A stretch of 22,097 nt of DNA from positions 1 through 22,097 of IMG/VR virus record IMGVR_UViG_3300007511_000173. One strand, 5' to 3'. Of the stretch, positions 1,407-22,097 are shown piece by piece. Each line of letters begins with the position of its first letter. Within the stretch, counting starts at the first letter, position 1. Under the pieces are notes generated by a model. That model searched no databases and was not told where the DNA came from. It saw only the letters and a list, made by a program, of their open reading frames with translations. The position numbers and the translations under genes are program-made. The DNA comes from a virus.

Positions 1407-3677
1407 TTAATATATAAACCAATTTGAGCCGTTAGAATATAGCAACAGAGAACCATAAGGAGATTCCATAGTTACGGTGGTGTCCCCATCTATGGTTTGT
1501 GCGGCAGCGCCACTTAATAGAATAGTGTCCGTTACGCTGGTGGCCCCCGACTCATCTTTTATAACGAGGACCTGTCCTTCTGCGAACAAGGTTGCATCAA
1601 CTTCAATTTCTGTTGGAACGGCGCTTACCCCCAAAATATAATCAGCTACAGAAGCTGTATACACACTTGAAACGGTAGTATGTTTATGCACAAGTCCCCC
1701 CGAAAGGTGGGTGTTGCCGGCAGTAGTTAAAGTATGGCTTGGTACGCTCGTTCCAATGCCCACCCGGTCGGTGGACCCCTCAACAAACAAACTAGCCGTA
1801 TTGTTGAGAGTTCGTACTTGAAAGTCTACATCGGCACTAGCGGAGTTGAAGACGGCCCAGTCTCGGCCGTTTTCATCAAACTCTAAAAAGTTAACATTGC
1901 CAGCTTTAAACTGCATAGAGTCTGAGCCTGCTTGGCCGAAGCGAATAAAGGTATCGCTATCATTATGAACAAAAATATACCCGCCGCCCATTGAACCGAC
2001 CGATAAATATCCTCTTACATCGAGGGCATATTGCGGATCGTCTGTGCCGATTCCAACCGATTGTCTTGCTGCTCCATCGGATCCTCGTGAACCTGTTACA
2101 AACAGGGCGGGCCCTAGCGTGGTACTTTGGGCGTTATCAATGCGAAATGCAACATTGTCATCCGAAGAGGAAAGAGCCATCGTACCGGAAAGAACCATAA
2201 AACTAGTCGAAGAGTCATAGGTGAGATTAGAGGAGCCCCCAAAAGTACTCGCATTGTTAAATTGAATTGAATTAACCGGCGGCGCAGGAGACGTCGTAGC
2301 GCCATCCCCTGCTGCAAGTACAACATTATTGTTCGTATCTAGAGACAAATAGCTGCCTGGGCCGGCCATTGATCCAGAGGTAGGCTGAAGGCTCATGAGC
2401 GATGATGATAAAGTTGTTAGTTCTGCCAGGGATCCCGTGTATGAGCCCGTCAGGGTGGTACCATTAAAAGTTAAATTGCTAGAGCCAGCGAAGTCGCCGG
2501 CACTATTAAACTGAACGGAACTAACGGGAGTAGCAGGAGATGTGGTTATCCCACTTAAGTTTGACCCATCCCCATAGAAAGCAGAAGCCGAAATGTTAAC
2601 ACTAGCCGACACTGAGCCACTTACCGAAACCTGATGATCTGGAGCTGTCGTTCCGCCAATAGCCAAACTACTCGTCACATAAGCACTAGATCCGTTGATC
2701 GTGGTGAAAATACCCCCTAATCCTTCGCCAAGTGACGAGGTAACGACTATGTTATTATTTACATCCAGGGCCAGGTAACTGCCGCGGCCGGCGAGCGATC
2801 CCGAAGTTGGTATCAAGTTTACCAGCGACGCCGATAAGCTTGTAAGCTGTGCCAAGGAGCCGGTGTAAGAGCCCGTTAGGGTGGTCCCATTAAAAGTTAA
2901 ATTGGCGGAGCCGGCGAAGTCGCCGCCGGAATTGTATTGAACCGAATTTGCAGGCAACGCGACGGCGCCGGCGGTAGAAGTAATCGTGAGGGGGCCCTGG
3001 CGGCCGCCGTCTGTCAAGGTGATTCCGGAACCAGCTGCTAAATAACGCCCCTCAGTCAGGCGAGACTCCGGCGTCATAGTGATATAGGTCGCAGCTACCG
3101 GGAGGGCTGGTCCGGGGCGAGATGCAGGGGCCGCAGACCCATCGGCGAGGACGGCGGCGGATTCTCCCGGCCGCGTGACTGCGGGCATTACTCGGAAAGA
3201 GTCAGTTCGTGCGCGGATGCATTCCGCACTAATCTGAAACTTGTGCTCTACCTGTCCAAAGTAAAACCGTGTATCGTTATAAGTACGGACAATTTCATAG
3301 AACTGGTCGCCGTATTGTACAAAGTCACCCACGCGTACGTAGAGATTTTGATCAGCGGTAATGCGCTTTTCACTAAAGTTAACTGTTAGTTTAGTCTGGT
3401 ATTCATAACCATATCTATCGTTGCTTTGCTCGTTCTCTACCTCAACATAGGCATAGACGCGGACAGGGGGCAATGATATTTTATCAATTGCCTCCCCGTA
3501 GATATCATTGAAATTAGATTCTTCTAAGCTTATTGGATAATAAGCAATAGGTTGTCCAATGACTCTTTCGGCAAGCTCATCATTGACCTGTTTAACAAGG
3601 TCACGTTCTTTCTTGCCAAAGAACATTGGGGGCGGCGGCGCTTCGGGTTGATCCCATTTATTATTCGGATCGGACAT
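1407..3677 (-). CDS. neck/connector-like N-terminus fused to tail-fibre repeats
   Basis: 756 residues; SD GGAGGAG precedes the ATG. Residues 1-20 are Pro-rich (PPPP). Residues 19-162 form a non-repetitive domain with FFGKKERD, ELAERVIGQ, YGEA, LPPVRVYA, VGDFVQYGDQFYEI and RFYFGQVEHKFQI. From recall this resembles head-tail neck proteins of T4-like phages (gp14-like), but I could not compare sequences. After a Pro/Ala linker (about 165-195) come fibre modules: two close copies of VQ(F/Y)N..GDFAGS.NLTFNGTTLTGSYTGSL and a weaker third, then VGIGTDDP and VGIGTSVP motifs common in phage fibres, and a C-terminal domain ending SNGSNWFIY. The likely role is a virion appendage whose N-terminus docks on the neck, as a whisker or collar fibre would. 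The fibre part is well supported; the neck part is inference. Confidence 0.75.
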   Translation of the reverse strand: MSDPNNKWDQPEAPPPPMFFGKKERDLVKQVNDELAERVIGQPIAYYPISLEESNFNDIYGEAIDKISLPPVRVYAYVEVENEQSNDRYGYEYQTKLTVNFSEKRITADQNLYVRVGDFVQYGDQFYEIVRTYNDTRFYFGQVEHKFQISAECIRARTDSFRVMPAVTRPGESAAVLADGSAAPASRPGPALPVAATYITMTPESRLTEGRYLAAGSGITLTDGGRQGPLTITSTAGAVALPANSVQYNSGGDFAGSANLTFNGTTLTGSYTGSLAQLTSLSASLVNLIPTSGSLAGRGSYLALDVNNNIVVTSSLGEGLGGIFTTINGSSAYVTSSLAIGGTTAPDHQVSVSGSVSASVNISASAFYGDGSNLSGITTSPATPVSSVQFNSAGDFAGSSNLTFNGTTLTGSYTGSLAELTTLSSSLMSLQPTSGSMAGPGSYLSLDTNNNVVLAAGDGATTSPAPPVNSIQFNNASTFGGSSNLTYDSSTSFMVLSGTMALSSSDDNVAFRIDNAQSTTLGPALFVTGSRGSDGAARQSVGIGTDDPQYALDVRGYLSVGSMGGGYIFVHNDSDTFIRFGQAGSDSMQFKAGNVNFLEFDENGRDWAVFNSASADVDFQVRTLNNTASLFVEGSTDRVGIGTSVPSHTLTTAGNTHLSGGLVHKHTTVSSVYTASVADYILGVSAVPTEIEVDATLFAEGQVLVIKDESGATSVTDTILLSGAAAQTIDGDTTVTMESPYGSLLLYSNGSNWFIY
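2320..2530 (-). repeat. fibre module, copy 2 (partner 2746-2956)
   Basis: In-frame direct repeat, offset 426 bp (142 codons), inside the 756-residue fibre. It encodes the module from SVQFNSAGDFAG to LSLDTNNNVV. Identity is highest around the segment encoding LTFNGTTLTGSYTGS. A degenerate third copy (SIQFNNASTFGGSSNLTY) lies further left. Confidence 0.8.
2746..2956 (-). repeat. fibre module, copy 1 (partner 2320-2530)
   Basis: Encodes SVQYNSGGDFAGSANLTFNG through YLALDVNNNIVV. It is the upstream copy of the 142-codon in-frame duplication. Confidence 0.8.
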
Positions 3678-3783: not shown

Positions 3784-4194
3784 TTAACCAACGCCTAAGG
3801 AGCCAGTCCAGTTAACATTGGGGCTCACAGCGCCGGCGCCTCCGGGGGAAAGGGAGGGGTTATCAATGCCAGACGTAGCAATAAAGGTCAAGCCTGCCAT
3901 GACATCTACACTGGCTGCGCCGGCGAGGTGCAGCTGGGTAATCTTAAGTTCGAGCGGTTCGGTAACAGAGCCCGAAGTTAATGTAAAATAGTTGGTACCA
4001 GCGACGCCTGCGGCTGAAAAGCCAACTTTGAGGTCGGACGCTGTATTGTTTTTCACCCTCACCCATCGGGTAACCGCCGGGAACTCTACTACCGCAGCCG
4101 TGCTGGCATTGATAGCTCCTGTTACGAACGGTCTTCCCGAGACCTGGTAGGATCCCACATTTCCGATCCCTGCTTGATATTGAAATACTGCCAT
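3784..4194 (-). CDS. small probable virion protein, beta-rich
   Basis: 136 residues. The ATG at 4194 is preceded by GGAG at suitable spacing. The protein is rich in Gly, Ala, Ser, Thr and Val with alternating beta-type segments (RWVRVKNNTASDLKVGF, NYFTLTSGSVTEPLELKITQLHL, VDVMAGLTFIA), has no Cys, no signal peptide and no membrane segment, and ends in a Gly/Pro/Ser-rich tail. This fits a small jelly-roll-like decoration or tail component, and I recall similar proteins in uncultured marine phage contigs, but no specific function can be named. It sits between bS21 and the neck/fibre gene in the late structural operon. Confidence 0.7.
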   Translation of the reverse strand: MAVFQYQAGIGNVGSYQVSGRPFVTGAINASTAAVVEFPAVTRWVRVKNNTASDLKVGFSAAGVAGTNYFTLTSGSVTEPLELKITQLHLAGAASVDVMAGLTFIATSGIDNPSLSPGGAGAVSPNVNWTGSLGVG

Positions 4195-4219: not shown

Positions 4220-4233
4220 CACGCTACAGCGTG
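4220..4233. other. short hairpin between bS21 and the next gene
   Basis: CACGC-TACA-GCGTG forms a 5-bp stem with a 4-nt loop just after the bS21 stop codon. It is short and lacks a following T-run on the minus strand, so it may be a weak terminator, an mRNA stability element or chance. Confidence 0.3.
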
Positions 4234-4235
4234 TT

Positions 4236-4457
4236 TTATCTAAACAATTTCTTATCTAGTTTTCTTTGTAGCTTCTTTGCCTCTCTGCGGGCCTTGTCAC
4301 TTTTAAGTTTACGCTGCACACTGGGCTTGATGTAATGGGATGTGCGGGCCTTGTAGCGTTCGACCACCTTGTCGCGTTTACATTTTTTAATAAACCGTCG
4401 TATAAGGCGCTCCGACGATTCTCCTCGTCGTAATTCTACTACTACATTAGTGGCCAT
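4236..4457 (-). CDS. rpsU: phage-encoded 30S ribosomal protein bS21
   Basis: 73 residues, the usual bS21 length (about 70). The family pattern is visible: N-terminal VVVELRRGESSERLIRRF, then KKCKRD, an RRYK-type segment (VVERYKARTSHYIKPSVQRK), and a highly basic C-terminal helix rich in Lys and Arg (SDKARREAKKLQRK). In bacteria bS21 binds the 30S platform near the 3' end of 16S rRNA and aids initiation. Viral bS21 is established in several phage groups and is thought to be incorporated into host ribosomes to favour viral mRNA. Here the gene lies inside the late head operon, 7 nt after the preceding stop, and its SD (AAGGAAA) overlaps the end of that gene, so translation is probably coupled. 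The frame is complete with no sign of decay. Confidence in the family is high; the effect on translation is inference. Confidence 0.93.
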   Translation of the reverse strand: MATNVVVELRRGESSERLIRRFIKKCKRDKVVERYKARTSHYIKPSVQRKLKSDKARREAKKLQRKLDKKLFR

Positions 4458-4464
4458 ACTATTG

Positions 4465-4914
4465 TCACTTTCCTTCTTTAATTTCGTTCATGTGGGCGTT
4501 CCAATTCTTGCCTACAGAGCCAAAAAGAGCTGTAATGTCAACCCCTTTGTCGCCAGGGGCTTGTCCGCTTAAGGGTGCCGCCTGTTCGTCCGGGCTGGCC
4601 TGATTCGGTGCTGGGGATGTTCCCTCGAAGAGATCTACACCGTTATAGCTTTTGCCGCCGATCGCAGCCATGAGCTTGTTTTTATGTTCTTTTAGTTTTT
4701 TTGACTGCTCGGATGTAAACGCGTTACGCTGCATTCTTTCTCTAACAGGATTCGCCGTGGGTGCCGGGGCGGCTTCCACAATAGGCGCGGCAACCGACAC
4801 GCCTTTTACTACTTCAGCAATAATTCCTGAGATAAGCCCGTCTTCTAAGAGTGACTCTTTGATGCACTCTTGAACAAGAGGCTTCAGAATCTTTTTCAGT
4901 TCTGACTTTTTCAT
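4465..4914 (-). CDS. unrecognised head-operon protein with amphipathic N-terminus
   Basis: 149 residues. Its ATG overlaps the stop of the preceding gene (ATGA), implying coupled translation. The N-terminus, MKKSELKKILKPLVQECIKE, is an amphipathic charged helix like that of the upstream 671-residue protein. Next come a short hydrophobic stretch (GLISGIIAEVVKGVSVAAPIV), an Ala/Pro linker, a Lys-rich helix (SEQSKKLKEHKNKLMAAIGG) and a disordered Pro/Gly/Asp-rich C-terminal half ending WNAHMNEIKEGK. It follows the protease and the 671-residue protein, where T4 places its scaffold gene, so an internal head or scaffold role is possible, but no family is recognised. Confidence 0.65.
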   Translation of the reverse strand: MKKSELKKILKPLVQECIKESLLEDGLISGIIAEVVKGVSVAAPIVEAAPAPTANPVRERMQRNAFTSEQSKKLKEHKNKLMAAIGGKSYNGVDLFEGTSPAPNQASPDEQAAPLSGQAPGDKGVDITALFGSVGKNWNAHMNEIKEGK

Positions 4915-6928: not shown

Positions 6929-7531
6929 TTAGTCTCTCAGGATACTATCGATTAAGTTGATAATTTTATTACTTTTTTCAACCTGCTCATTCACAAGCTT
7001 GCTTTCGCTAAGAGCCATAAACGCATTCGGTGTCGAAGGCTCTGAGACAATGTCGAAGCAAATCAATTGAAAGTCATCCTCTACAATTGTTTGTCCCTGG
7101 TGCTCTTTTACGGATCCCATGCCGCGAGATGAGATGCCAATCTTGACGCCGGCGTCTACCAGCGAGCGAAGAATCTGTCCAGCCGGGGTGGCGAGAACCT
7201 TGCATTTACCCATCACAGCCGGTCCATCCATCCAGATATCTACAACCATATGAGAAACATTGGCTAAGTTAATAATAGAAGACTCCGGGTGGTCTAGTTC
7301 CCCTAGCGCCCGATTATCTTTAACCATCTCGGAGTATTTCTTTACTTCGCGCTCCATAATATCAGGCGGATACATGCGCTGATTTCCATTGAGGACACCA
7401 CCTTCTTGGAGCTTGCCCGTAATGAACATGGCATTGTTTTCCCGAATTTCTCTCTTCTCGGCTTCCGTCAGTAGATCCTGACAGACGCCGCCTTCGCATA
7501 GTTCATAAAATTCTCGGAGAAGTTGTGCCAT
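6929..7531 (-). CDS. 21: prohead core protease (T4 gp21-like, peptidase U9 type)
   Basis: 200 residues, close to the T4 gp21 length. Key motifs are visible: GELDHPESSIINLANVSH with the probable catalytic His81, GISSRGMGS with the probable catalytic Ser134 or Ser135, and FDIVSEPSTPNA with Asp160, in the herpesvirus-type protease order. This enzyme cleaves scaffold and capsid proteins inside the prohead before packaging, and itself. The gene lies downstream of portal and terminase, as in T4-like phages, although four or five small genes separate it from portal where T4 has only two (67 and 68). The start at 7531 lies 6 nt after the upstream stop and its SD is weak, so translation probably depends on coupling. 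Assignment is strong from motifs and context. Confidence 0.9.
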   Translation of the reverse strand: MAQLLREFYELCEGGVCQDLLTEAEKREIRENNAMFITGKLQEGGVLNGNQRMYPPDIMEREVKKYSEMVKDNRALGELDHPESSIINLANVSHMVVDIWMDGPAVMGKCKVLATPAGQILRSLVDAGVKIGISSRGMGSVKEHQGQTIVEDDFQLICFDIVSEPSTPNAFMALSESKLVNEQVEKSNKIINLIDSILRD

Positions 7532-8920: not shown

Positions 8921-9720
8921 TTTAAAGCCAGCTCCCGAACTAATTCTTGGGTTTGCAAAACCTTGTTTAGGTCTGTATCTACAAAGTCTCTCTTTCGAAA
9001 GCCCTCAAGATACTCTACTACCTCTGTTATCTTGGTAGAGACCGACCGTGATTTACTATCGTGTGCCGACAGCGTGGCCTTAAGCCGGCGAAGCTCTTCA
9101 TTAAGATAAAGCCTGAGTTCAAATCCCTCGTCCGCAAAACTCGTGATATAACGATTTAATAAGTCTTTTTGCTCGGAAAGCAGGTTGGTGTACTTATCAT
9201 TAAACTTGTTAATAAATGAATTATATGTTAGATTGTCCAGAGGCTGCAGGGTATCATCAGCTCTCGTTGAGGGCGCGGACGACATTCTGTCTACGATCAT
9301 CTGTTCGAATAGGACTCTTTTCTTAACGGCGGCTTTAGAATTAAAAATAGCGTTTACCGAAGCTAAAGATTTAAAATTAGGAACAAAGTTCCCCCATACA
9401 TCCGGGCTGACTTCCTTATTAATTGCAGCGATAATCCTACTTTGAGCACTAAAGATACTATTTTCATCCAGCGCTTGGTGTGCCACCTTAGTTTCATGGA
9501 GCAGTCGTTCTGCTACTTTCGGATGTATATTAACGGTCTCCAACAAAGCTGTGTATAACTCTAGCTCTTGTGCTAGGATGCACCCCTTGGAAAAGAACTC
9601 TTTAAGTATCGAGCCGATCTTCTGTTTGGTAGCTCGGTCTTTATTGACAACAGCTCTAGTGAGCTCTCGTGTTAGGGTCTCATAAATGAATGCGGTATTT
9701 CGTTTTTTATTGTGCTTCAT
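8917..9720 (-). CDS. helical head-operon protein, unknown function
   Basis: 267 residues; the start overlaps the portal gene by 14 nt and the stop overlaps the next ATG. The sequence is mostly charged alpha-helix: MKHNKKRNTAFIYETLTREL, a Lys-rich segment (KDRATKQKIGSILKEFF), a central region (FNSKAAVKKRVLFEQMIVDRM), and C-terminal coiled-coil-like stretches (LYLNEELRRLKATLSAHD and STKITEVVEYLEGFRKRDF). No catalytic motif or membrane segment. Its place directly after portal, as T4 genes 67 and 68 are placed, and its helical nature would suit a prohead core or scaffold protein. This is context-based inference only. Confidence 0.65.
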   Translation of the reverse strand: MKHNKKRNTAFIYETLTRELTRAVVNKDRATKQKIGSILKEFFSKGCILAQELELYTALLETVNIHPKVAERLLHETKVAHQALDENSIFSAQSRIIAAINKEVSPDVWGNFVPNFKSLASVNAIFNSKAAVKKRVLFEQMIVDRMSSAPSTRADDTLQPLDNLTYNSFINKFNDKYTNLLSEQKDLLNRYITSFADEGFELRLYLNEELRRLKATLSAHDSKSRSVSTKITEVVEYLEGFRKRDFVDTDLNKVLQTQELVRELALK

Positions 9721-11662
9721 CTTCTTGTGCCTCTTTTTTCTCTAATTGCTCGACTAACTTCCGAACACTGCGTGTGTTTTCGAGCAGTCGGGTCTCGCTA
9801 GTATTATAAGTAGATTGTTTTTGCTCTTCCAGACCAAACCTTACGTCTGGGATATAACCCTGAGGTTTTCGGGAGCGTGAAGTCTCGCCTCGGAGTGCCT
9901 CCACATTGTGCAGCGCCTTTATCGTTTTACTATTTGGTCCCGATCGTCCGGACCGGCGTTGATCTCCTCCGCGCTGGGCTACGGTTTTATAAGAACTCTT
10001 ATCGTAGTCGCGCACATTCGCATCTCCTTCCTTCATATCATCTCGCCGCCCGGGTGCCGCCAGTAACGGGGACTCTTCTCCGGCCGGTTCTGCGCCACCG
10101 AGGTCGCCTCCAAGCTCGTCTCCCCCCAATTCGTCGCCACCCAGATCATCGCCGAGGCCCAGGTCATCGCCACCCATTTCGCCACCCAAAGCATCTTCGG
10201 CGCCTTGTTCAGTGACAGCTTCAAGAGCTTGCTGATACTTACGATCATAGAATGACTCCCGCTGGTTGCGCAGGAACTCATCATCAGAGAGTCCGAGGAT
10301 GTTGTGTCCCACCCAGCGCTTGCTGTATGTCCCTTCGGGAACAGCATTTGCAACATCAAACTTGGTACGCATGTATTCCAGCTGCTGGAGTTCTGCAAGA
10401 CGAGAAGGATTGTTAAGTTCTAATTCAAAGTTGATTAAATCGTCGCCGCGAAAGCCTAGGGTATACAAATGAACGACGCCGATCTTTTCTAGTTCAGCCA
10501 CCACGGCGCGTTGCAGTCTCTGGATTGTGCGTGCGAAACGGATATCCTTCTGGGCCAAAGTGGTCTTGTCTTCATCAGCGCCTTCTAAGTTTGTCAGATA
10601 AGCCTGCGGCACTTTAATAGCAGCAAACAACTTATCTCTCATATACTTGACATCATCAATATCATTGAGGCTCGCTGCGCCTGGGAGGGACTTGATGTCG
10701 GAACCAACACCCCCTCGCATCGGAATGAAATAATCTTCTTCAAGTGACAAAGGATTATAACGAAGGTCCACGCGACCGGTGTTAGCGTCTACCAGCTGGT
10801 TGCGCTTCATCTCAGTTTTAACTTTTTCCATATATTGGGCTACATCCTGGGGTGGAATATTGCCAACATCAATCTGAAATATGCGGCGCTCAGGTGCACG
10901 GACAACTCGGTATGCAATCATCGCATCTTCTAACAAACACAGCTGCCGCCAGATGCGGCGAGCGGGGTCCAGGACTGAGGTGCCATAAGGCGCGTGGCGG
11001 TCGTTACCCAGAATTCTGAAGTGTGCAACCTGCCAGTTCTCGAATGTCATGCCAGCGCCATTCCACTGATACTGTATATAATTTGGGTTTGTGGGATCTT
11101 GTCCCTCTAGTCGTTCCACTTCATTATTGGGCATTCCAATGACCGAGGTAACTCCCATCTCATCATCGACGTCTAGATATAGAAAAAAGTCTCCATATTT
11201 ACACATCGAGCGAGCCCAGCCGAATGCATTAAACTCAATGTTCAATACATCATAATATAAAGAATGAAGGATTGTTTTAATCTCAAGGTTAGTACACTTA
11301 ACATTTAATAGGGGCTCAAACGAATTTGAAGTTGTCATCTCGTCCGCATAAATATCTATTGCAGACGCAATCTCTGGCATGTATTCCATCTGTTCAAAAT
11401 CAATATATCGTTCTGCTCGGTTCTGACTGCGAAATGCGGCCGAGGTCAACATGTTGAAACTCTGACCCATATTATTATCAGCGCGTTTGAACTCCTGTCC
11501 GCTCATGGAACGGAAACGGTACCGATATTTATCTAAATTGCTCCGGCGGTCCTGACGAACATTTTGCTGCTGATAGTTAACCAGCGGTCCTGACAGTAAT
11601 CTCGTCAACCTCTTAAACAGAGGAGATGCGGGGTTTCTCAAATTCTTGTCGTTTCTGGCCAT
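9707..11662 (-). CDS. 20: portal vertex protein (T4 gp20-like)
   Basis: 651 residues, longer than T4 gp20 (about 520). The core carries recognisable T4-type portal segments: YIDFEQMEYMPEIASAIDIYADEM (about 86-109), APYGTSVLDPARRIWRQL (224-241), LLEDAMIAYRVVRAPERRIF (243-262) followed by IDVGNIPP, and KLFAAIKVPQAYL (344-356). The portal forms the dodecameric ring at one head vertex through which DNA enters and to which neck proteins attach. The C-terminal part from about 490 is an extension: a Gly/Asp/Glu repeat (497-524), a basic segment (QRRSGRSG), and a charged helix at the end (RSVRKLVEQLEKKEAQEDEAQ). It lies 3 nt after terminase, in the usual T4-like order. Strong assignment. Confidence 0.93.
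   Translation of the reverse strand: MARNDKNLRNPASPLFKRLTRLLSGPLVNYQQQNVRQDRRSNLDKYRYRFRSMSGQEFKRADNNMGQSFNMLTSAAFRSQNRAERYIDFEQMEYMPEIASAIDIYADEMTTSNSFEPLLNVKCTNLEIKTILHSLYYDVLNIEFNAFGWARSMCKYGDFFLYLDVDDEMGVTSVIGMPNNEVERLEGQDPTNPNYIQYQWNGAGMTFENWQVAHFRILGNDRHAPYGTSVLDPARRIWRQLCLLEDAMIAYRVVRAPERRIFQIDVGNIPPQDVAQYMEKVKTEMKRNQLVDANTGRVDLRYNPLSLEEDYFIPMRGGVGSDIKSLPGAASLNDIDDVKYMRDKLFAAIKVPQAYLTNLEGADEDKTTLAQKDIRFARTIQRLQRAVVAELEKIGVVHLYTLGFRGDDLINFELELNNPSRLAELQQLEYMRTKFDVANAVPEGTYSKRWVGHNILGLSDDEFLRNQRESFYDRKYQQALEAVTEQGAEDALGGEMGGDDLGLGDDLGGDELGGDELGGDLGGAEPAGEESPLLAAPGRRDDMKEGDANVRDYDKSSYKTVAQRGGDQRRSGRSGPNSKTIKALHNVEALRGETSRSRKPQGYIPDVRFGLEEQKQSTYNTSETRLLENTRSVRKLVEQLEKKEAQEDEAQ
10091..10174 (-). 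repeat. short tandem coding repeat in portal C-terminus
   Basis: Imperfect 15-bp units encoding GD(D/E)LG-type pentapeptides (residues 497-524 of portal). Such repeats expand and contract easily. The encoded stretch is acidic and probably flexible. Confidence 0.75.
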
Positions 11663-11665
11663 TTC

Positions 11666-13252
11666 TTATCCTTTTATCAAAGCAAGGTATTGATCATTAA
11701 ACGCCTTACCTTCTTGCGAACGTTGATTCTCTTTTGTCATTTTGTGTCCGTGCATTCCCGGGATCGTGGTCGAAATATTTGTTTTAGACGTAGAAATAGA
11801 TGACAGCATCTGCTTATCGTATTCTACATTTTTTTGACTTTCCACAATCACCGTATCTCTTACCCAACAACCAATTGCAAAGGACATCACCAAATCATCG
11901 TTATAACTGCGCATTGCCTGTGGGCGCCCTGCTTTCCAAATAAATGTTTTCATTTCTGATAGTAATCGCGTTGAGTTAATCTTAATTAGTTTGTTTCTCA
12001 TAAACTCTTCCATCTTCGCCACAATCAATGGTCGTGTTTTCGAAGACGTAGTGAAGCCGGGAATGACATTAGACTGCCACTGTGCCGCAACAGGGTCCAC
12101 ATATTGATGATCACCCTTTCGTGAATGATATAAGTTATGATACTCTTTATCCAGCAACTTTTTAAGTACCGCATAGCCTATGTTGTTGTTTTCTATAACC
12201 AACATGGGGTTACCATATTCTGATGCCACGCCATACAGGATGTCCGCAAAATCGTCGGGGGTGGGCTTGCCGACATATTCAGCTACGACTTCCATGGATT
12301 CCAGTTCCATGATATGAAAGGCGCTGTTATCTTTTCCGTCGCCTCGCGCGACATCTGCCACTATAAGATATGGTTTTGTTGCGTCATACTTCTTCCAAAT
12401 CCAATAGTTGCGGTCGAAACCAGTACGATATTCGGGACCCACCACTCTTTCCAAATACCACTGAATATCGTCGGGATGAATAACCGTCTCGCCTGAAACA
12501 TTGAAGTTACACTCTAGCTCCTGCGCAATCTGGCGTCTAGACATGTTTCTGGTTTCTTTATCAAACCAGGCTTTATCGCGGTCGGGATGAACATCCCACA
12601 AGAGCGTGGTCAGGTTGAAGGCATTTGTTCCGGCTTCGGCCTCGACGCAGTTCTGATGGAACCAGTTACCAACGCCATTAGGAGTGGAAAGAGCTATACA
12701 ACGACCACCAGTAGAGAGGGTGGGATACAGCGCGGTCCAGAGTTCGCCAAGCTTTTCAACGTGGGCGGCCTCATCAATGACGAGCAATGACAGCGCTTCC
12801 GAACGGCCTGCATCGCCTGATGTGGAAGAGCCTTTGATCTGAGATCCATTTTTTAATTCAAAGGATGTGCGATTATCAATCTCGATATCACTGATCCTCA
12901 TCCAATCCGGAAGATTCTTGATGATAGCTTTTACTTTTTTAACTAAGTTGGTGGCGGTTTGAAGTTTAGTGGCAACAACAAGGATATTCTTATCGCGATG
13001 AAAAAGCATCAGCCACGCAATATAGGCAGCTGAGATAGTAGATATCCCAAGCTGGCGCGCCTTAAGAATTATATTGAAGCGATAGTCGTTAAAGTCTCTC
13101 AGCATTTCTTGCTGATAGTCGTACGCCTTAAACGGGATCAGTCCTCTTTGGGGGTGGGAAATGCGACAATAGTTTATTGTAAAGTAAACCGGATCTTTGC
13201 CGGCCTTGACGATCTCTTTTAATATCTCTTGCTTTGTTAGCGCATTCCCCAT
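11666..13252 (-). CDS. 17: terminase large subunit (T4 gp17-like packaging ATPase/nuclease)
   Basis: 528 residues, somewhat shorter than T4 gp17 (about 610). ATPase domain: adenine-binding region with YDYQQEMLRDF (45-55), a Walker A-like KARQLGIST (64-72), Walker B LLVIDEAAH (156-164) with catalytic Glu161, and a coupling motif LSTPNG (188-193). Nuclease domain: IVADVARGDGKDNSAF with Asp300, LVIENNNIGY with Glu354, and SYNDDLVMSF with Asp452 or Asp453, an RNase H-like acidic set. It cuts concatemeric DNA and drives it into proheads through the portal encoded just downstream. The frame is intact, with no intron or homing endonuclease, which are common at this locus in other phages. Strong assignment. 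Confidence 0.95.
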   Translation of the reverse strand: MGNALTKQEILKEIVKAGKDPVYFTINYCRISHPQRGLIPFKAYDYQQEMLRDFNDYRFNIILKARQLGISTISAAYIAWLMLFHRDKNILVVATKLQTATNLVKKVKAIIKNLPDWMRISDIEIDNRTSFELKNGSQIKGSSTSGDAGRSEALSLLVIDEAAHVEKLGELWTALYPTLSTGGRCIALSTPNGVGNWFHQNCVEAEAGTNAFNLTTLLWDVHPDRDKAWFDKETRNMSRRQIAQELECNFNVSGETVIHPDDIQWYLERVVGPEYRTGFDRNYWIWKKYDATKPYLIVADVARGDGKDNSAFHIMELESMEVVAEYVGKPTPDDFADILYGVASEYGNPMLVIENNNIGYAVLKKLLDKEYHNLYHSRKGDHQYVDPVAAQWQSNVIPGFTTSSKTRPLIVAKMEEFMRNKLIKINSTRLLSEMKTFIWKAGRPQAMRSYNDDLVMSFAIGCWVRDTVIVESQKNVEYDKQMLSSISTSKTNISTTIPGMHGHKMTKENQRSQEGKAFNDQYLALIKG

Positions 13253-14210: not shown

Positions 14211-17200
14211 TTAGGTGTTGTATATTGAAGCATTACTATAGATAGGTCGCACTCTCATCTCGAACAGCGGATAGGCGCCACCGCACCTGAGAATATTGCT
14301 ACCGCCGGAGGCATTGTAGCGCCGTGCGTACAAATACCAAATATATGTAGCACCGCTGGACAACCCGGTAACATAAAAGCGCGCAGATTTAAATCCACGT
14401 TGCTCTTGCTCAGCGTACCAAAATGCTCTCTCCGTACCGACAATTGTTGAATACCCCAGCGGGATATATGTCTTGTCGCCTGAAGTAGAAAGGGCCAAGT
14501 AGACATATGGTCCAGAGCCGCCGGTGCTGGTGTCTTCCTCCCAACAATCGACTTCAACCACCACTTTGCCACTCGCCGGAGCGGTGAAAGAAACCTTAGG
14601 GTCAGTAGTAGAGGTGTCGCCGCTGCTCCAAATAACTCTATATAAATCAGTGTTCGAGTTGGTAATTGTAAATGCGGTCGCCGTTGAAGGGTCTAAAATC
14701 GTCTGTGCTATAATTCCAGGGTCCCAGCCGGGTTTGATTTGTCCGACCGCAGTAGTGATGCCCTCGATATAGAGGTTACCATCCCCAGGACCGCTGGTGG
14801 TTGTTCCAACTCGTAGCCCATCAATGCGGGCAAAGTTTTGGACAAAAAGAGAGCCTGCAGTTGTTAAATTTCCAGCAGCAGTACACGCTCCATTTGCTAC
14901 TGTAAACTCTGTTCCGCCGCTAGCATCGTACAAGACAATATTGCCGGTCCCGGCGATGCTAATTCTCTGGTGTCCTTCGGCATCCCTGATATAAGATGTT
15001 GCTGCGCCCATAGTTAGGTCGCCATCTATTACAAGACTATCAAACCTTTTTTTCACGTTTGTGGTGGTTGGATTATGAGAGAGTGGTGTATATGAGCCTG
15101 CCCAGGTTTGTCCGGGGGTTAAGTACCAATCTGATTTATAATTCTCATCGCCATCGCTACTACCATTAGTGATGGTCGCATAACAGCTCTGATTGGTGGC
15201 TGGTGTTCGTACATACAGTTGAGCCTGCTTGGTACCACTGGTTTCTTGGGTTAGAATGAAATCGGTGGTGTCCCACGCTACAGATCCCTCATCCTGTATA
15301 ATGTCCACTTGGAGTTGAGAATTCGAGTAGTAGTATCGGCTCACCCACAAATGACAACGAGCTTGATATATTTCTGCGGAGCCCTCATTTCCCATCAATA
15401 TCACATCAATTACGGCGGCGCCGACTTGATAACTGCTGTGTTCGAGATCTACTTCAGCTACCTTAACCCACTCATCTGCGGCACTAAGATCAGTGGAGAT
15501 TGGGGCGCCCAAAGCTGACGTTACTCCTTCGCTCACAGTTAGTGCGCCGGCGATATCAAGATTACCATTTCCATCCAGGGTCATATTGGTAGTCGACGCA
15601 GCTGTTCCATTCGGCGTAGTCAAAAATTTCAATCTCGTCCCTTCATTTGATCCCTCAACAAAAGTCTCAGAGCACTCTGCTTTGATCACGGCGGGGGACC
15701 ACGCAATGTTAGTTCCATTTTCTGTTGCTTGAAAAATAATATTACCAAGATCATCTCCATCCACAAGCGAGGCAGTCTCCCTTCTAAAAAACAAATCTGC
15801 GACAGCGGTACTCTTGATGAACAAGTCTCCACCATTTACAGTTAAATCGCCGGCCAGATTCACATCGTTGGTGGCGTCCATTGTGATGACTGTTCCGCCA
15901 GAACCCTTAATGTCGTTTCCTGTTACGGTTAGGTCTCCATCAATTTGAAGGTCTCCTGTCTGGGATAAAGCCGCTTTCTGAGCCCACCCATTTATTCGAA
16001 ACTGCAGATCGTCGTTACTCGCCTTATTTCCAATAGCCCACTTGACCGTCGTATTTTCACTGAATATAACATTAGCTTCGCTGCCGGCTGCAGCATCCAC
16101 TTCAATATTGCAGTGATCCGCCGTGTTTTGGACAAAAAGAGCGCGGTCGTTTGTTAGACCGGTGTTGCTCGTGCTGATCGTCGCTTTTGCTGCGGTCAGT
16201 GCGCCGGCGATTGTAACCAAGCCGTCGCTGGCAATGCGCATACGCTCTGTCAATGAATTGGAGCCATCCGCGGTGGTGCGGAACAGGAGGCGCCCGGGGG
16301 TGTCGTTTGATCCCGGGGTACCGTCTACTTCCGCCATAATGCCGGCCGTGGCGGAAGCAAAGTCAGTCCCGTCATAGGAATACCAACGAAGGCTACCAAT
16401 AGTGTCGCCGTCCTGCACAATAGCTGGGCTAGCCATTGTTCCCCTAGCGCGTTGAAGAAGAATGTTGGGTCCATCAGTTACGGATGAATTGTTATATTGT
16501 GTGACGGATACTACAGCTTCGGCAGAGACATCAGTTGCTACCGTCAACAAGTGGGCCGGGGAGGAGTTCGGTCCCACACCAACGTTGCCGCCGCCGTAAC
16601 CTAAAACTACATTGTCATCTTCATAGTGGTTTAAAGAAAGATATTGTCCATCCGAATCGATGATCATGTGTTCTGAAGAAACAGCTTTGATGCTGGCTTC
16701 ACCGTTTGCTCGACCAAGGACAAGGGTGTCGCCGGATGTCGGCTCGGCTATAGTAAGAGTATTTCCATTAAAAGTTAACCCTGAATCTCCCTCTAGGGTA
16801 TCGGTGTCTGTCCATATGGCAACTTGATTATTTGCAGGCGTTCCGGTGTAATCAACTAAATCGCCTGCCCACACTTTTGGATCGATTTCGTCTGTTACGA
16901 TTGAAGATCCATTGTACACCAGCACAGTATCATCCGTACCACCCATCGCACCGACATTTGTTAAAACTATGTTTTTCGCGTTGAAGGTTACGGTGTCGCT
17001 GGAGGCGTTACCAAGAGTTGTGTCGCCCGTAATACTGGTGTCACCCGTAACCGTGAGCGTAGAGCCGTCAAAAGTTAGATTTGATTCAACAGCTGCCTCA
17101 TCGGCATCCTTATAAGTAGCAACACCATTTGCCGTTGAGCCGTACCAGGAAATGCCTCCGCCGCCACCACCACCGGAACCAGTCACATTCTGCAGCAGTG

Positions 17201-17300
17201 ACCCATCACCGACAAAGGCCGTTGCCGTAACGGTTCCCATGTTGGTTTCAATAAATTGTATTAGAGCCCCTTTGGACTGATAGATTACATCTTTACTCAC
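14211..17300 (-). CDS. long tail-fibre-like protein, 1029 residues
   Basis: I chose the GTG at 17300: it overlaps the upstream TGA (GTGA), an SD (GGAG) lies about 11 nt before it, and it gives a sensible N-terminus (MSKDVIYQSKGALIQFIETN). A longer frame from 17477 would lie inside the neighbouring gene, and a later ATG at 17240 lacks a good SD. After VTATAFVGDGSLLQNVTG comes a run of seven Gly, then repeated SNLTFDGSTLTV, GDSGLTFNGNTLTI and VTGD-type beta repeats and a VGVGPNSSP motif, typical of phage fibres. The last 140 residues (about 890-1029) are non-repetitive and rich in Tyr and Trp (GPYVYLALSTSGDKTYIPLG, FWYAEQEQRGFKSARFYV, YIWYLYARRYNASGG), so they may be the receptor-binding tip. 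No S74 chaperone domain is evident. It sits between a small membrane-protein group and the packaging genes. Confidence 0.85.
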   Translation of the reverse strand: MSKDVIYQSKGALIQFIETNMGTVTATAFVGDGSLLQNVTGSGGGGGGGISWYGSTANGVATYKDADEAAVESNLTFDGSTLTVTGDTSITGDTTLGNASSDTVTFNAKNIVLTNVGAMGGTDDTVLVYNGSSIVTDEIDPKVWAGDLVDYTGTPANNQVAIWTDTDTLEGDSGLTFNGNTLTIAEPTSGDTLVLGRANGEASIKAVSSEHMIIDSDGQYLSLNHYEDDNVVLGYGGGNVGVGPNSSPAHLLTVATDVSAEAVVSVTQYNNSSVTDGPNILLQRARGTMASPAIVQDGDTIGSLRWYSYDGTDFASATAGIMAEVDGTPGSNDTPGRLLFRTTADGSNSLTERMRIASDGLVTIAGALTAAKATISTSNTGLTNDRALFVQNTADHCNIEVDAAAGSEANVIFSENTTVKWAIGNKASNDDLQFRINGWAQKAALSQTGDLQIDGDLTVTGNDIKGSGGTVITMDATNDVNLAGDLTVNGGDLFIKSTAVADLFFRRETASLVDGDDLGNIIFQATENGTNIAWSPAVIKAECSETFVEGSNEGTRLKFLTTPNGTAASTTNMTLDGNGNLDIAGALTVSEGVTSALGAPISTDLSAADEWVKVAEVDLEHSSYQVGAAVIDVILMGNEGSAEIYQARCHLWVSRYYYSNSQLQVDIIQDEGSVAWDTTDFILTQETSGTKQAQLYVRTPATNQSCYATITNGSSDGDENYKSDWYLTPGQTWAGSYTPLSHNPTTTNVKKRFDSLVIDGDLTMGAATSYIRDAEGHQRISIAGTGNIVLYDASGGTEFTVANGACTAAGNLTTAGSLFVQNFARIDGLRVGTTTSGPGDGNLYIEGITTAVGQIKPGWDPGIIAQTILDPSTATAFTITNSNTDLYRVIWSSGDTSTTDPKVSFTAPASGKVVVEVDCWEEDTSTGGSGPYVYLALSTSGDKTYIPLGYSTIVGTERAFWYAEQEQRGFKSARFYVTGLSSGATYIWYLYARRYNASGGSNILRCGGAYPLFEMRVRPIYSNASIYNT

Positions 17301-17764
17301 TGCGTTACGATCTCCGTTGACAATGCAAAAATCCCCAACGAAGTAAGCGTTCCAATTCCAAAACCAAGCGCAACCAAGAATGGGCCTTGTCCGGGCTTCT
17401 GCTTTAAAACCAACTCTGTGAGGCGATCGTTCTCGGCTACTTTTAGAATCATCATTGATTCGTACTTGTCTTTCCAAGAGGTGAGTTCAATATCTTTATA
17501 ATCTAGCTGAAGCTGATATTTCTCTTCTTGGATGTGGAGTTCGTAACTGATGCGTAGATCGCACTCTGCGCTTTCAAATTTCTTTTCTGTTACTAGTTTT
17601 GCGGCCGCATCAAGTGAGAGCAGAACCCCATCAAATGGCACGATATCTCCGGCCTCAATTGGCAACACAACATAATCCGGGAAGGTTTCAATTTCTTCCG
17701 CCAACGCGATGGCTGGTGCCATCATAAAAATCGCCAGATAAAGCGATAATATTTTCCTAAACAT
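17297..17764 (-). CDS. secreted membrane-anchored protein, lysis candidate
   Basis: 155 residues; the ATG overlaps the upstream stop (TAATG). A signal peptide is clear (MFRKILSLYLAIFMMAPAIALA, probable cut after Ala22). The exported part begins EEIETFPDYVVLPIEAGDIVPFDGVLLS, continues with a charged coiled-coil-like stretch (about 68-122), and ends with a second hydrophobic segment (PFLVALGFGIGTLTSLGIFAL, about 128-148) and a short tail. Such a protein would sit in the inner membrane with its coil in the periplasm. Together with the two upstream small membrane proteins this suggests a lysis function (spanin-like), but no Rz/Rz1 match is recognised and there is no lipobox. Confidence 0.7.
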   Translation of the reverse strand: MFRKILSLYLAIFMMAPAIALAEEIETFPDYVVLPIEAGDIVPFDGVLLSLDAAAKLVTEKKFESAECDLRISYELHIQEEKYQLQLDYKDIELTSWKDKYESMMILKVAENDRLTELVLKQKPGQGPFLVALGFGIGTLTSLGIFALSTEIVTQ

Positions 17765-18398: not shown

Positions 18399-19121
18399 AT
18401 GTCTAAACAACTTAAGTACAAGCTTAAAAAAACATTAAAAAACGCGGAGTTTGTACACGCTGATTTAGAGTATCACCAAGAACTGTTTGCCGAAGCAAAG
18501 GTCGAGTTTAATGAAGAAGTAACCCGACTTTTAAAAAAATTGCCCGCCGAAGAGCAGGCGCGGCTTCAAGAAATAGTAGAAAGAAAAATTTCTGAGGAAA
18601 TCGCACAGAGAACGGCGACTGCAGCAAAAAAGGAGGCGGAGGAGGAGCTGCCTAAAGTAACTGAAAGCAACTGCATGGATCTTGTCACCACCGACATAGA
18701 GCCGGAGGACCGAAAGCCAGAAGAAAAAATTGATTTAGAAAAATCAAAACTTATTGAGCTTAAGAGACTCTTTCGTAAAATTGCAGAACTTACTCATCCA
18801 GACAAATTAGCAGCTAGCGGGTTTTCTACACAAGAGATAGCAAGGCTGGAAAAGATATTCAAGCGCGCGCTGGGAGCCTATAACAATGATAACTGGTATG
18901 TGGTGTACTCAATTGCTATGGAGCTACAAATCCCCCTTGATGTCGAGAGCGAAGATTACATCGATTGGATCGACGAGGACATTCGAAAAACTCTTTCAAA
19001 CATTTCCAGAATTGGGAACACCGTCGCATGGATGTGGTATGTGGGTGATGAGGCTTCCAAAGCGTACGCTCTTAAAAGTTATTTCGAACAAATATATGAC
19101 TATATCTATCCAGGGATCTGA
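18399..19121 (+). CDS. J-domain (DnaJ-like) protein
   Basis: 240 residues and the only plus-strand gene in the window. The N-terminal half is a charged helical region with a probable coiled coil (about 20-85, including EEQARLQEIVERKISEEIAQ). A J-domain core follows: LIELKRLFRKIAELTHPDKLAASG (118-141) with the invariant His-Pro-Asp at 133-135 after a basic helix II, then ARLEKIFKRALGAYNNDNW (148-166), which matches helix III. The C-terminal 60 residues are rich in Tyr, Trp and acidic residues. J-domains stimulate ATP hydrolysis by DnaK, so this protein probably recruits the host Hsp70 to some phage target. The zinc-finger and substrate domains of full DnaJ are absent. It ends 4 nt before the convergent SbcD-SbcC stop. 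The domain call is good; target unknown. Confidence 0.82.
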   Translation: MSKQLKYKLKKTLKNAEFVHADLEYHQELFAEAKVEFNEEVTRLLKKLPAEEQARLQEIVERKISEEIAQRTATAAKKEAEEELPKVTESNCMDLVTTDIEPEDRKPEEKIDLEKSKLIELKRLFRKIAELTHPDKLAASGFSTQEIARLEKIFKRALGAYNNDNWYVVYSIAMELQIPLDVESEDYIDWIDEDIRKTLSNISRIGNTVAWMWYVGDEASKAYALKSYFEQIYDYIYPGI

Positions 19122-19125
19122 TCCA

Positions 19126-22097
19126 CTACTGGCTGACGTATGCAAAGCCGTCTTTTTTGTCTATCGTAATCTCTACATCAACGATATCTTTTAGAGAGTC
19201 CACATGAGAAATGAGGATCACAGTCTTAAAATACATTTTAATGATCTGAAGGATTCGAATGAAGCCCTCCATGTTCTCGGCATCCAGAGCTGTGCCCGGC
19301 TCGTCCAGAATGAAGACGTTACCCTTAGGAAGCGAAGACACAGATAGCAGCGCCAGCCGAATTGCCATTGCCGCGACGGTCTTCTCGGCTCCTGATCCCA
19401 TCTCAATTGGCCGTGGCTCATGACCGGGGTGTTTAATAAGAATGTCAAGTTTGCGGCCGTCCTCTTGGAAAAAGACATCAAAATCAACAATGTTCGACAA
19501 GACCTTTGCTATCTCGCTGTTGATAACAGGAAGACGCTTTTTGATGATATCATACGCAACACCATTCGAATGAGTACATCGCATAAATAAATCATAGGAC
19601 GCGTACTCTTCCCTGATGTCGTGAAGTTCTTTCTTCTTATCATGAAGCGACTCTACCTTCTGCTCTAGGGATCCAATCTGCCGGTGATGGTTATTAATCA
19701 AGTCCTCTAAAACAAGAATAGAATTCTGCGAGCTGTCGATTACTTTCTGGACTTCGTCGCGGGAAGCCAAAAGACTCTCGATGTTCTTGATTAGATCTTT
19801 CTTTTCTTCATAGAGGCTGATTTTATTTTGTGTCTCGCTAAGCTGTGTTCTGCTGGCTTTAATCTTCGCATAAAGCTTCTCAATCGAAACCTTGTTGTCT
19901 CGCTTTTCAATTTCAATATTATTCTTATTGATGATGGTGGCGTTGTAGTTATCAATGACTGCTATCATTTCGGCCGAGTTCACCGATACTATTTTCGTCT
20001 TGTAATCCTTGGCATCCTCTATCTCTTGGATTATGTCAACCTCTAGAGACGGTAACTCAACCGAGGCCAAATGAGCGTCCTTAATAAATTGGCACATGGG
20101 AAACTGATCCCCGCAGGGTACTTCATCGAGCAACTCTACTTTTTTATTCAGTCCTTTATAGTCATTGTCCATGAGGCGCGCCCGATTCACCGTGTCATCA
20201 TATTTTTGCTTGAACTCATCATGTTGCTTCTTCTTTTCTAAAAGCTCTTCAATATCAATTGTAGTAAGGAAATCATCGTAGTCCTTAAGCTTTTCGTCGT
20301 ATCCCACAACCTCTTGTTTTAGCTCAACAATATTAAGATTTGTCTCTTCGATCTTATCTCCTAGGGCATTTTTCAATTCTAAGAGAGAGACAATATCCAA
20401 TCTTTCAGCCGGGATAGAATCAATTTGATCTGTCAAGGCTATGTATTCCGCATGCGCGTCGGACAAGTTCTGTCGCTCGGTTGCACAAATAACCACCTCG
20501 TTGTCTAACTCTTTGCGGGCCTCTTCGCACTGAACTTCCGCGAGCGCGATATCATTATCGTAGTTAGTCTCTCCGACTCGTCGAATGAGCCCTTTAAGAT
20601 CGGCGCAGTCCTCGTGAGCGAGCTTAAACTTTCTCTCAAAGATGTCTAAATCCAAGAACTTAGCCAGGATTTCTTTCCGGCGTGTAGAACCCTCTTTAAT
20701 GAACGATAAACTGTCGAGTTGGCTGGACATAGATGTGAGCAAAAAGTCTTCAACTGTCCCGAATCTCTTACGAATATGGGCGTCTGTCTCGTTGCGTGTC
20801 GTACCATTGAGGCTTACAGTTTCTCCTGCAACGGGGTCTACACCACTAAAATCTAAATTGGTGCGCGCCTCGTTGGTTACTTCACCCTTAAGCTTCTTCA
20901 CATACTTCGTTGAATCTCTCTCAATTGTATAAACCTTCTCTCCTACTTGAAGTTCCACCACTCCTCGACAATCTTTCCTATTCTGATTGATGATGTTATA
21001 ATTTTTCCGCTCGTTCTTAGAGGTAGTATTGAACATTGTATAGAGCAGCCCATCAATAATGCTAGACTTTCCAGAGAAGTTCTTTCCGAAAATGCCCACA
21101 ATGCCATTTAGGTTTGTAAAGTCGACGCTATTGCCTTCTCCGTAGTTGAATAAATTGTCCCACTCAAACTTGTTAATATTCCAGTTCACATTACGAGCAA
21201 CCTCTTCGGTCTCCTCAATCTGTGAGTTGTACTTCCGATTAAGTTCAAATACGCGTTCAAGCATTTCCTCGGTCGGCTGATAGTCAACGAGATACTCACG
21301 GATTAGATTCTCTTGCACACCCTTGTCTCGCAGGTTCTCCACCTTAAAACCAGTACCGATCTCAACCGTACCGCGCTGGCCGGCAGCTCGATTAAGAAAT
21401 GTAATACTCTCGGGCTTAAAGCGATGCTTGGCAACCTCTACAGCCTTACGCATAACATCAAGCGGCAGGTTATTGTTGCTCACAAGACGTAGGCGCGCGT
21501 TGGCTGGGACAGTTGTCCCCCTAGGCATTCGCCCCTTTGGCGTGAGTTCAATTGTTACGAAAGGCTTGGGGTTGAGCAAAACATGGTGACTCACGCGAAA
21601 CTCATCTTTGTCTTCAATTTCCCAAATCAAGAATCCCTTGTCGTTTGTCTCGCCGTGATTCTGTTGAACAGTTGAGCCACAATACCTCACGCGACCTTCT
21701 GTGTCTAGAATTTGATTGGTCTTGTGAATGTCACCAAGCAGGGCATAGTCGTGACCACCAAAGATACTCACATCGTGATCTCCGTGAGTCATGACCCAAC
21801 CGGTGTCAGTTTTGACGCCGGACACAGAGCCGTGATAAAGTGCGATGTTAATTCTATCAGGATCACTTGGCATCACCCAATTATCCTCGTCAAAAACCGA
21901 GAGCACATTGAAGGCGATGTGCGGCCCTACAAGGACTTCTCCTGCATTCTTGAGCAGATGTAGGTCCGGTAGGTTTAAAGCCTTCACAATGGGCGACAGG
22001 GCGTCCTGACGGGTACTGTTCTTTAGGTTGCCGTCGTGGTTCCCCAGAATGATGTAGGTTGGTGCGATTTTCGCTAGATTTGCGAAGAAGTCGGAGC
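19126..22097 (-). CDS. SbcD-SbcC (Mre11-Rad50, gp47-gp46) fusion, partial (N-terminus beyond right edge)
   Basis: The frame stays open to the window edge (989 visible residues). A GTG at 21987 is not the start, because the metallophosphoesterase motif ILGNHDG lies upstream of it (visible residues 16-22). Further nuclease motifs are YHGSVSG (about 87-93) and LLGDIHKTNQ (about 119-128), a GHxH-type site with Asp for the first His. A capping region follows, and then an ATPase begins with NKFEWDNLFNYGEG and Walker A GIFGKNFSGKSS (334-345). Two long coiled-coil arms flank PCGDQFPMC (660-668) in the zinc-hook position. The C-terminus has the signature GSGAEKTVAAMA, Walker B FILDEPGTALD (around 928-938) and an H-loop ISHVD. 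MR complexes process DNA ends for recombination-dependent replication. In T4 the two parts are separate neighbouring genes in the same order (47, then 46). Frame continuity across the junction is seen directly. Confidence 0.92.
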   Translation of the reverse strand, partial: SDFFANLAKIAPTYIILGNHDGNLKNSTRQDALSPIVKALNLPDLHLLKNAGEVLVGPHIAFNVLSVFDEDNWVMPSDPDRINIALYHGSVSGVKTDTGWVMTHGDHDVSIFGGHDYALLGDIHKTNQILDTEGRVRYCGSTVQQNHGETNDKGFLIWEIEDKDEFRVSHHVLLNPKPFVTIELTPKGRMPRGTTVPANARLRLVSNNNLPLDVMRKAVEVAKHRFKPESITFLNRAAGQRGTVEIGTGFKVENLRDKGVQENLIREYLVDYQPTEEMLERVFELNRKYNSQIEETEEVARNVNWNINKFEWDNLFNYGEGNSVDFTNLNGIVGIFGKNFSGKSSIIDGLLYTMFNTTSKNERKNYNIINQNRKDCRGVVELQVGEKVYTIERDSTKYVKKLKGEVTNEARTNLDFSGVDPVAGETVSLNGTTRNETDAHIRKRFGTVEDFLLTSMSSQLDSLSFIKEGSTRRKEILAKFLDLDIFERKFKLAHEDCADLKGLIRRVGETNYDNDIALAEVQCEEARKELDNEVVICATERQNLSDAHAEYIALTDQIDSIPAERLDIVSLLELKNALGDKIEETNLNIVELKQEVVGYDEKLKDYDDFLTTIDIEELLEKKKQHDEFKQKYDDTVNRARLMDNDYKGLNKKVELLDEVPCGDQFPMCQFIKDAHLASVELPSLEVDIIQEIEDAKDYKTKIVSVNSAEMIAVIDNYNATIINKNNIEIEKRDNKVSIEKLYAKIKASRTQLSETQNKISLYEEKKDLIKNIESLLASRDEVQKVIDSSQNSILVLEDLINNHHRQIGSLEQKVESLHDKKKELHDIREEYASYDLFMRCTHSNGVAYDIIKKRLPVINSEIAKVLSNIVDFDVFFQEDGRKLDILIKHPGHEPRPIEMGSGAEKTVAAMAIRLALLSVSSLPKGNVFILDEPGTALDAENMEGFIRILQIIKMYFKTVILISHVDSLKDIVDVEITIDKKDGFAYVSQ

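Follow-up and report, generated by a model that had tools for sequence, protein, structure and literature searches.

The window that we analysed is the whole of a 22,097-base virus record, in which a gene for ribosomal protein bS21 is encoded on the minus strand after, in this order, genes for the large terminase (TerL), the portal, the S77 prohead protease, an ORF with a FliG C-terminal domain and an ORF that we call p5, and is followed by an ORF that we call p3 (Table 1). The bS21 gene is the third after the protease, and TerL, portal and protease all run in the same direction as bS21, in agreement with the initial annotation, which had placed a phage bS21 inside a head operon. The same annotation had described the two neighbours as a head-operon protein and a virion protein; the head module itself was confirmed, but these two labels rest on position only, since neither p5 nor p3 matched a Pfam or PHROG family. 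Comparison of p5 with T4 gp22 and with the gene that precedes rpsU in Microcystis phage Mel-JY01 gave no convincing match.

Table 1. Features of the head module and of the bS21 locus in the window.
Feature	Position	Strand	Evidence or remark
Large terminase TerL (gp17-like)	11666..13252	minus	Pfam PF03237
T4-type portal (gp20-like)	9707..11662	minus	Pfam PF07230, 4.1e-77
Prohead core protease (peptidase S77)	6929..7531	minus	Pfam PF03420, 2.1e-32; PHROG 207
FliG C-terminal domain ORF, 671 aa	4911-6926	minus	Pfam 8.7e-14; PDB FliG chains 1.7e-9
p5, 149 aa, upstream neighbour of bS21	4465..4914	minus	ORF; no Pfam or PHROG match
SD-like GAAGGA of bS21	4471..4476	minus	In 3' end of upstream gene, 13 nt before ATG
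Phage bS21 (rpsU-like), 73 aa	4236..4457	minus	ORF; Pfam and NCBIfam matches; AlphaFold2 model
Terminator-like hairpin	4220..4233	minus	Directly past bS21 stop; relatives show no clear conservation
p3, 136 aa, downstream neighbour of bS21	3784..4194	minus	ORF; no Pfam or PHROG match

The bS21 frame is intact from the ATG at 4457 to the stop codon at 4238-4236 and encodes 73 residues, MATNVVVELRRGESSERLIRRFIKKCKRDKVVERYKARTSHYIKPSVQRKLKSDKARREAKKLQRKLDKKLFR. Only 7 nt separate it from the upstream ORF (4914-4465; stop TGA at 4467-4465), and the GAAGGA at 4476-4471 falls within the last codons of that ORF, so that the Shine-Dalgarno (SD) motif of bS21 does overlap the previous gene, as had been proposed. 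The predicted duplex of the leader with the anti-SD has an energy of -8.9 kcal/mol, at a spacing of 13 nt, which is long, and close relatives share both the KEGK-stop ending of the upstream gene and a G/A-rich leader. The T4-type late promoter TATAAATA was not enriched in the window (1 match vs 0.78 expected), the promoter and terminator scan stayed near the shuffle background, and Rfam and tRNA scans were empty.

The product matched Pfam Ribosomal_S21 (PF01165; E = 2.7e-10, 40.3 bits against a cut-off of 27, 53 residues aligned), the NCBIfam equivalog TIGR00030 S21p (33.7 bits, cut-off 28.95) and PHROG 21469 'ribosomal protein S21', and a PDB search with it returned many ribosome chains, bS21 chains among them. 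The profile search on which the initial annotation had let the assignment hinge thus gave matches far beyond chance, and an intact 73-residue bS21 was confirmed. AlphaFold2 predicted helices at 15-28, 31-39 and 45-71 (mean pLDDT 89), the C-terminal one very basic. The top 11 PDB matches of this model were all small-subunit or whole-ribosome structures, the first-ranked being a bacterial ribosome that contains bS21, with none individually significant (best E = 0.4). Both family motifs, R20-R21-F22 in helix 1 and K44-P45 at the opening of the C-terminal helix, are there, and in an alignment with the sampled bacterial proteins R20, R38, Y42, K44, P45 and A56 are retained. At four sites that are near-invariant in these bacteria the window protein differs (A to L18, K to I23, G to K30 and E to I43), and its hinge carries a one-residue insertion. 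The 'full bS21 pattern' of the initial annotation therefore stood in part, and so did the retention of rRNA-contacting residues that was to be checked by alignment, with six conserved positions kept and L18, I23, K30 and I43 changed, residue conservation being here a mere proxy for rRNA contact. Position 23 is basic in 35/35 sampled bacterial bS21 and has lost this character in the clade of the window, which counts against the explanation that we favour below.

The arrangement is shared by 79 related viral contigs that carry bS21. All window genes detected in them share the strand of bS21; p5 was found beside it in 78/79, the protease in 76/79, p3 in 70/79 and the portal in 63/79, counts that vary with contig size and include a few near-duplicate contigs. 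In 78/79 relatives p5 directly precedes bS21. The FliG-domain ORF was seen in 10/79, the slot between protease and p5 varies in length, and we found nothing relevant in the literature on a role of this domain in phages. Altogether, 268 IMG/VR loci matched the window-type bS21, which lay in the head operon wherever the context was checked. Among 210 pairs the median pN/pS was 0.26 and the maximum 0.40, and dN/dS did not exceed about 0.2 in the least diverged pairs, synonymous sites being nearly saturated; the window-type bS21 is under purifying selection.

Viral bS21 is known from other phages, as the initial annotation stated, and earlier papers (Chen et al., 2022, PMC9723584; Mizuno et al., 2019, PMC6375957) already contain the main proposal of that annotation, a bS21 that sits beside head genes and acts late. 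Chen et al. found bS21 adjoining TerL, portal, protease and capsid genes; of 900 published phages with bS21, 310 had the prohead protease at most ten genes away from it. They also reported metatranscriptomic support for bS21 being transcribed together with late structural genes, and hypothesized a late take-over of the ribosome through bS21 (PMC9723584). Their Bacteroidetes phages resemble the window in the T4-type TerL, portal and prohead protease, in a bS21 that lies few genes from the protease, and in the late use proposed for it. One could hence suppose that the window protein is of that same type and keeps the anti-SD sequestered. The head proteins are indeed related (TerL is 47% identical to that of Flavobacterium phage immuto, in whose genome there was no Ribosomal_S21 match), but this supposition is already contradicted on several counts and we regard it as very improbable. 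In F. johnsoniae, sequestration of the anti-SD is aided by Tyr54 of bS21, which is stacked against the 3' tail of the 16S rRNA (PMC9976891). The Bacteroidota-type proteins of the Chen et al. phages have an aromatic residue at this site, whereas the window protein has Arg58, as would be expected if its host does not sequester its anti-SD; R or K occupies the site in 37/40 viral rows of our alignment and Y in 1. Moreover, bS21 runs opposite to the head genes in the phages of Chen et al., but is co-directional with them in the window and in 79/79 relatives. The contrast is direct, since the arrangement described by Chen et al. recurs in IMG/VR contigs L179-L198, with a reversed bS21 and a Bacteroidota-type protein. 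Placement in the tree and SD use, given below, also speak against this type.

The tree comprised 35 bacterial rows, 40 window-type viral rows, eight Bacteroidota-type viral rows and pelagiphage HTVC008M, and was built on few columns; the bacterial rows were 30 Pseudomonadota and five PDB chains (Bacteroidota, Bacillota, Acinetobacter). In this tree the window bS21 belongs to a clade of viral proteins only (39 rows, 98/88, starred), separate from the Pseudomonadota, Bacteroidota and Bacillota that were sampled. It lies outside the Bacteroidota clade, in which the Bacteroidota-type viral proteins group with F. johnsoniae. The HTVC008M protein grouped with alphaproteobacteria-like proteins, and that of Mel-JY01 attached by a long, doubtful branch. 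The motif ERLIRRFI had itself helped to recruit the viral rows, so that its frequency among them is circular; a search of cellular genomes for the clade-typical nonapeptide ERLIRRFIK is a non-circular reverse test. Across 84,980 species genomes it occurred in one bS21 only, on a contig (L053) that is binned in an Acidiferrobacteraceae MAG and is also held as viral: it is identical to IMG/VR record L048 in size (24,260 bp), contig number and bS21, and we therefore took it as viral rather than cellular. Its presence in that MAG either hints weakly at a host or stems from contamination during binning. The suggestion that this bS21 would reveal the host did not hold, since the phylogeny against bacterial bS21 gave a virus-only clade and the nonapeptide was in no cellular bS21; with no cellular neighbour in the sampled tree, we rejected a host assignment from bS21 phylogeny. 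Viral bS21 need not reveal the host.

A second suggestion, that the SD-rich leaders reflect a bS21-dependent initiation bias, was not borne out either. An SD motif precedes 72% of the 18 window genes, against 17% for internal ATG codons; by the same measure SD-led genes make up 76% in T4, whose genome has no bS21, 50% in Mel-JY01 and 0/30 in immuto. T4 and immuto served as controls and show that SD richness goes with the host and not with the presence of bS21, and we rejected it as a bS21 signature; SD-rich leaders are uninformative on bS21. The SD-rich genes of the window, so different from the 0/30 of the Flavobacterium phage, argue against a Bacteroidia host; more probably, the phage infects a bacterium from outside that class that uses SD motifs.

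As the best explanation, at a probability of roughly 0.6, we propose that the gene encodes a functional bS21 of a T4-type myovirus lineage, made late, that replaces host bS21 and biases or sustains phage initiation. The protein would be translated from late head-operon mRNA via its own SD overlapping the end of the upstream gene, would take the place of host bS21, which is held loosely on the 30S platform, and could there bias or sustain initiation on phage mRNA during the synthesis of virion proteins. Late use fits the position in the head module; late transcription, incorporation into host ribosomes and an effect on initiation are what we infer from the profile matches, the conserved co-directional order TerL-portal-protease-p5-bS21, purifying selection, the conserved residues and the SD-led genes, together with the published transcription of bS21 with structural genes (PMC9723584) and the uptake of one viral bS21 by E. 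coli ribosomes (PMC6375957). That viral protein came from HTVC008M, like the window a myovirus with its own bS21 and the one for whose protein incorporation was shown (Mizuno et al., 2019). Three of its traits count against our explanation: with its bS21, in vitro translation by E. coli ribosomes fell to about 5% (PMC6375957), that protein groups with alphaproteobacteria-like proteins, unlike the window clade, and its gene adjoins CobS, Hsp20 and replication genes, away from head genes. A simpler account, which we consider a serious though weaker contender, is plain supply: late infection needs many 30S subunits and host bS21 is easily lost, so that the phage copy would merely complete ribosomes, with no preference for phage mRNA. 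bS21 binds loosely and can be exchanged (PMC6375957), and an SD use matching that of T4, which lacks bS21, calls for no special class of mRNA; the virus-only clade with its conserved first-helix changes, however, suggests more than a copy of the host protein, bearing in mind that this clade was partly motif-recruited.

The fixed place between head genes and the very basic C-terminal helix could also point to a task outside the ribosome, such as RNA binding in head assembly, or to a bS21 that is packaged and delivered with the genome, a possibility raised by Chen et al. (PMC9723584). We hold this to be unlikely, given that signature residues of the ribosomal family are conserved under purifying selection.

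A cultured relative is Microcystis phage Mel-JY01 (PP395634). Its TerL and portal are 47% and 40% identical to those of the window, and its annotated RpsU matches the window bS21 in place: it is co-directional and comes second after the gene for the prohead protease. The protein has diverged strongly, however, and has no ERLIRRF motif. The contrast between the window lineage and the Bacteroidetes-phage arrangement of L179-L198 suggests an independent acquisition, or replacement, of bS21 at one and the same locus, the alternative being replacement of one ancestral gene. We tentatively extend this to a bolder proposal, which we think more doubtful than not: the window protein may be an old, virus-only bS21 that diverged from all cellular bS21 (L18, I23, loss of Gly30, hinge insertion) into a dedicated viral initiation factor acting on SD-led mRNA, in a mode unlike that of the anti-SD-sequestering bS21 of Bacteroidetes phages, with independent recruitment to the head-gene slot in at least two lineages. 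The window adds a large virus lineage in which a head-operon bS21 has a strand, a sequence type and a setting among SD-led genes unlike those of the published Bacteroidetes phages, and comparing both lineages would separate general functions of viral bS21 from traits of hosts that hide their anti-SD.

Elsewhere in the window, three long minus-strand ORFs (1-1250, 1407-3677 and 14211-17477) bear repeats, share short ones with one another, and probably encode fibres or other proteins of the virion surface. Among long ORFs on the plus strand only one resembles a gene (18399-19121, 240 aa); it had a weak, sub-threshold Pfam match to CTD9 (E = 0.0018). In a minus-strand ORF of 989 aa (19126-22095), truncated at the end of the window, an Mre11/SbcD-like part is fused with a Rad50/SbcC-like ATPase. 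No match to it was found in immuto; fusions of the Mre11-Rad50 type are known elsewhere (PMC3175470), and this one also occurs in six relatives (frames of 1044-1058 aa) and in Mel-JY01 (1067 aa).
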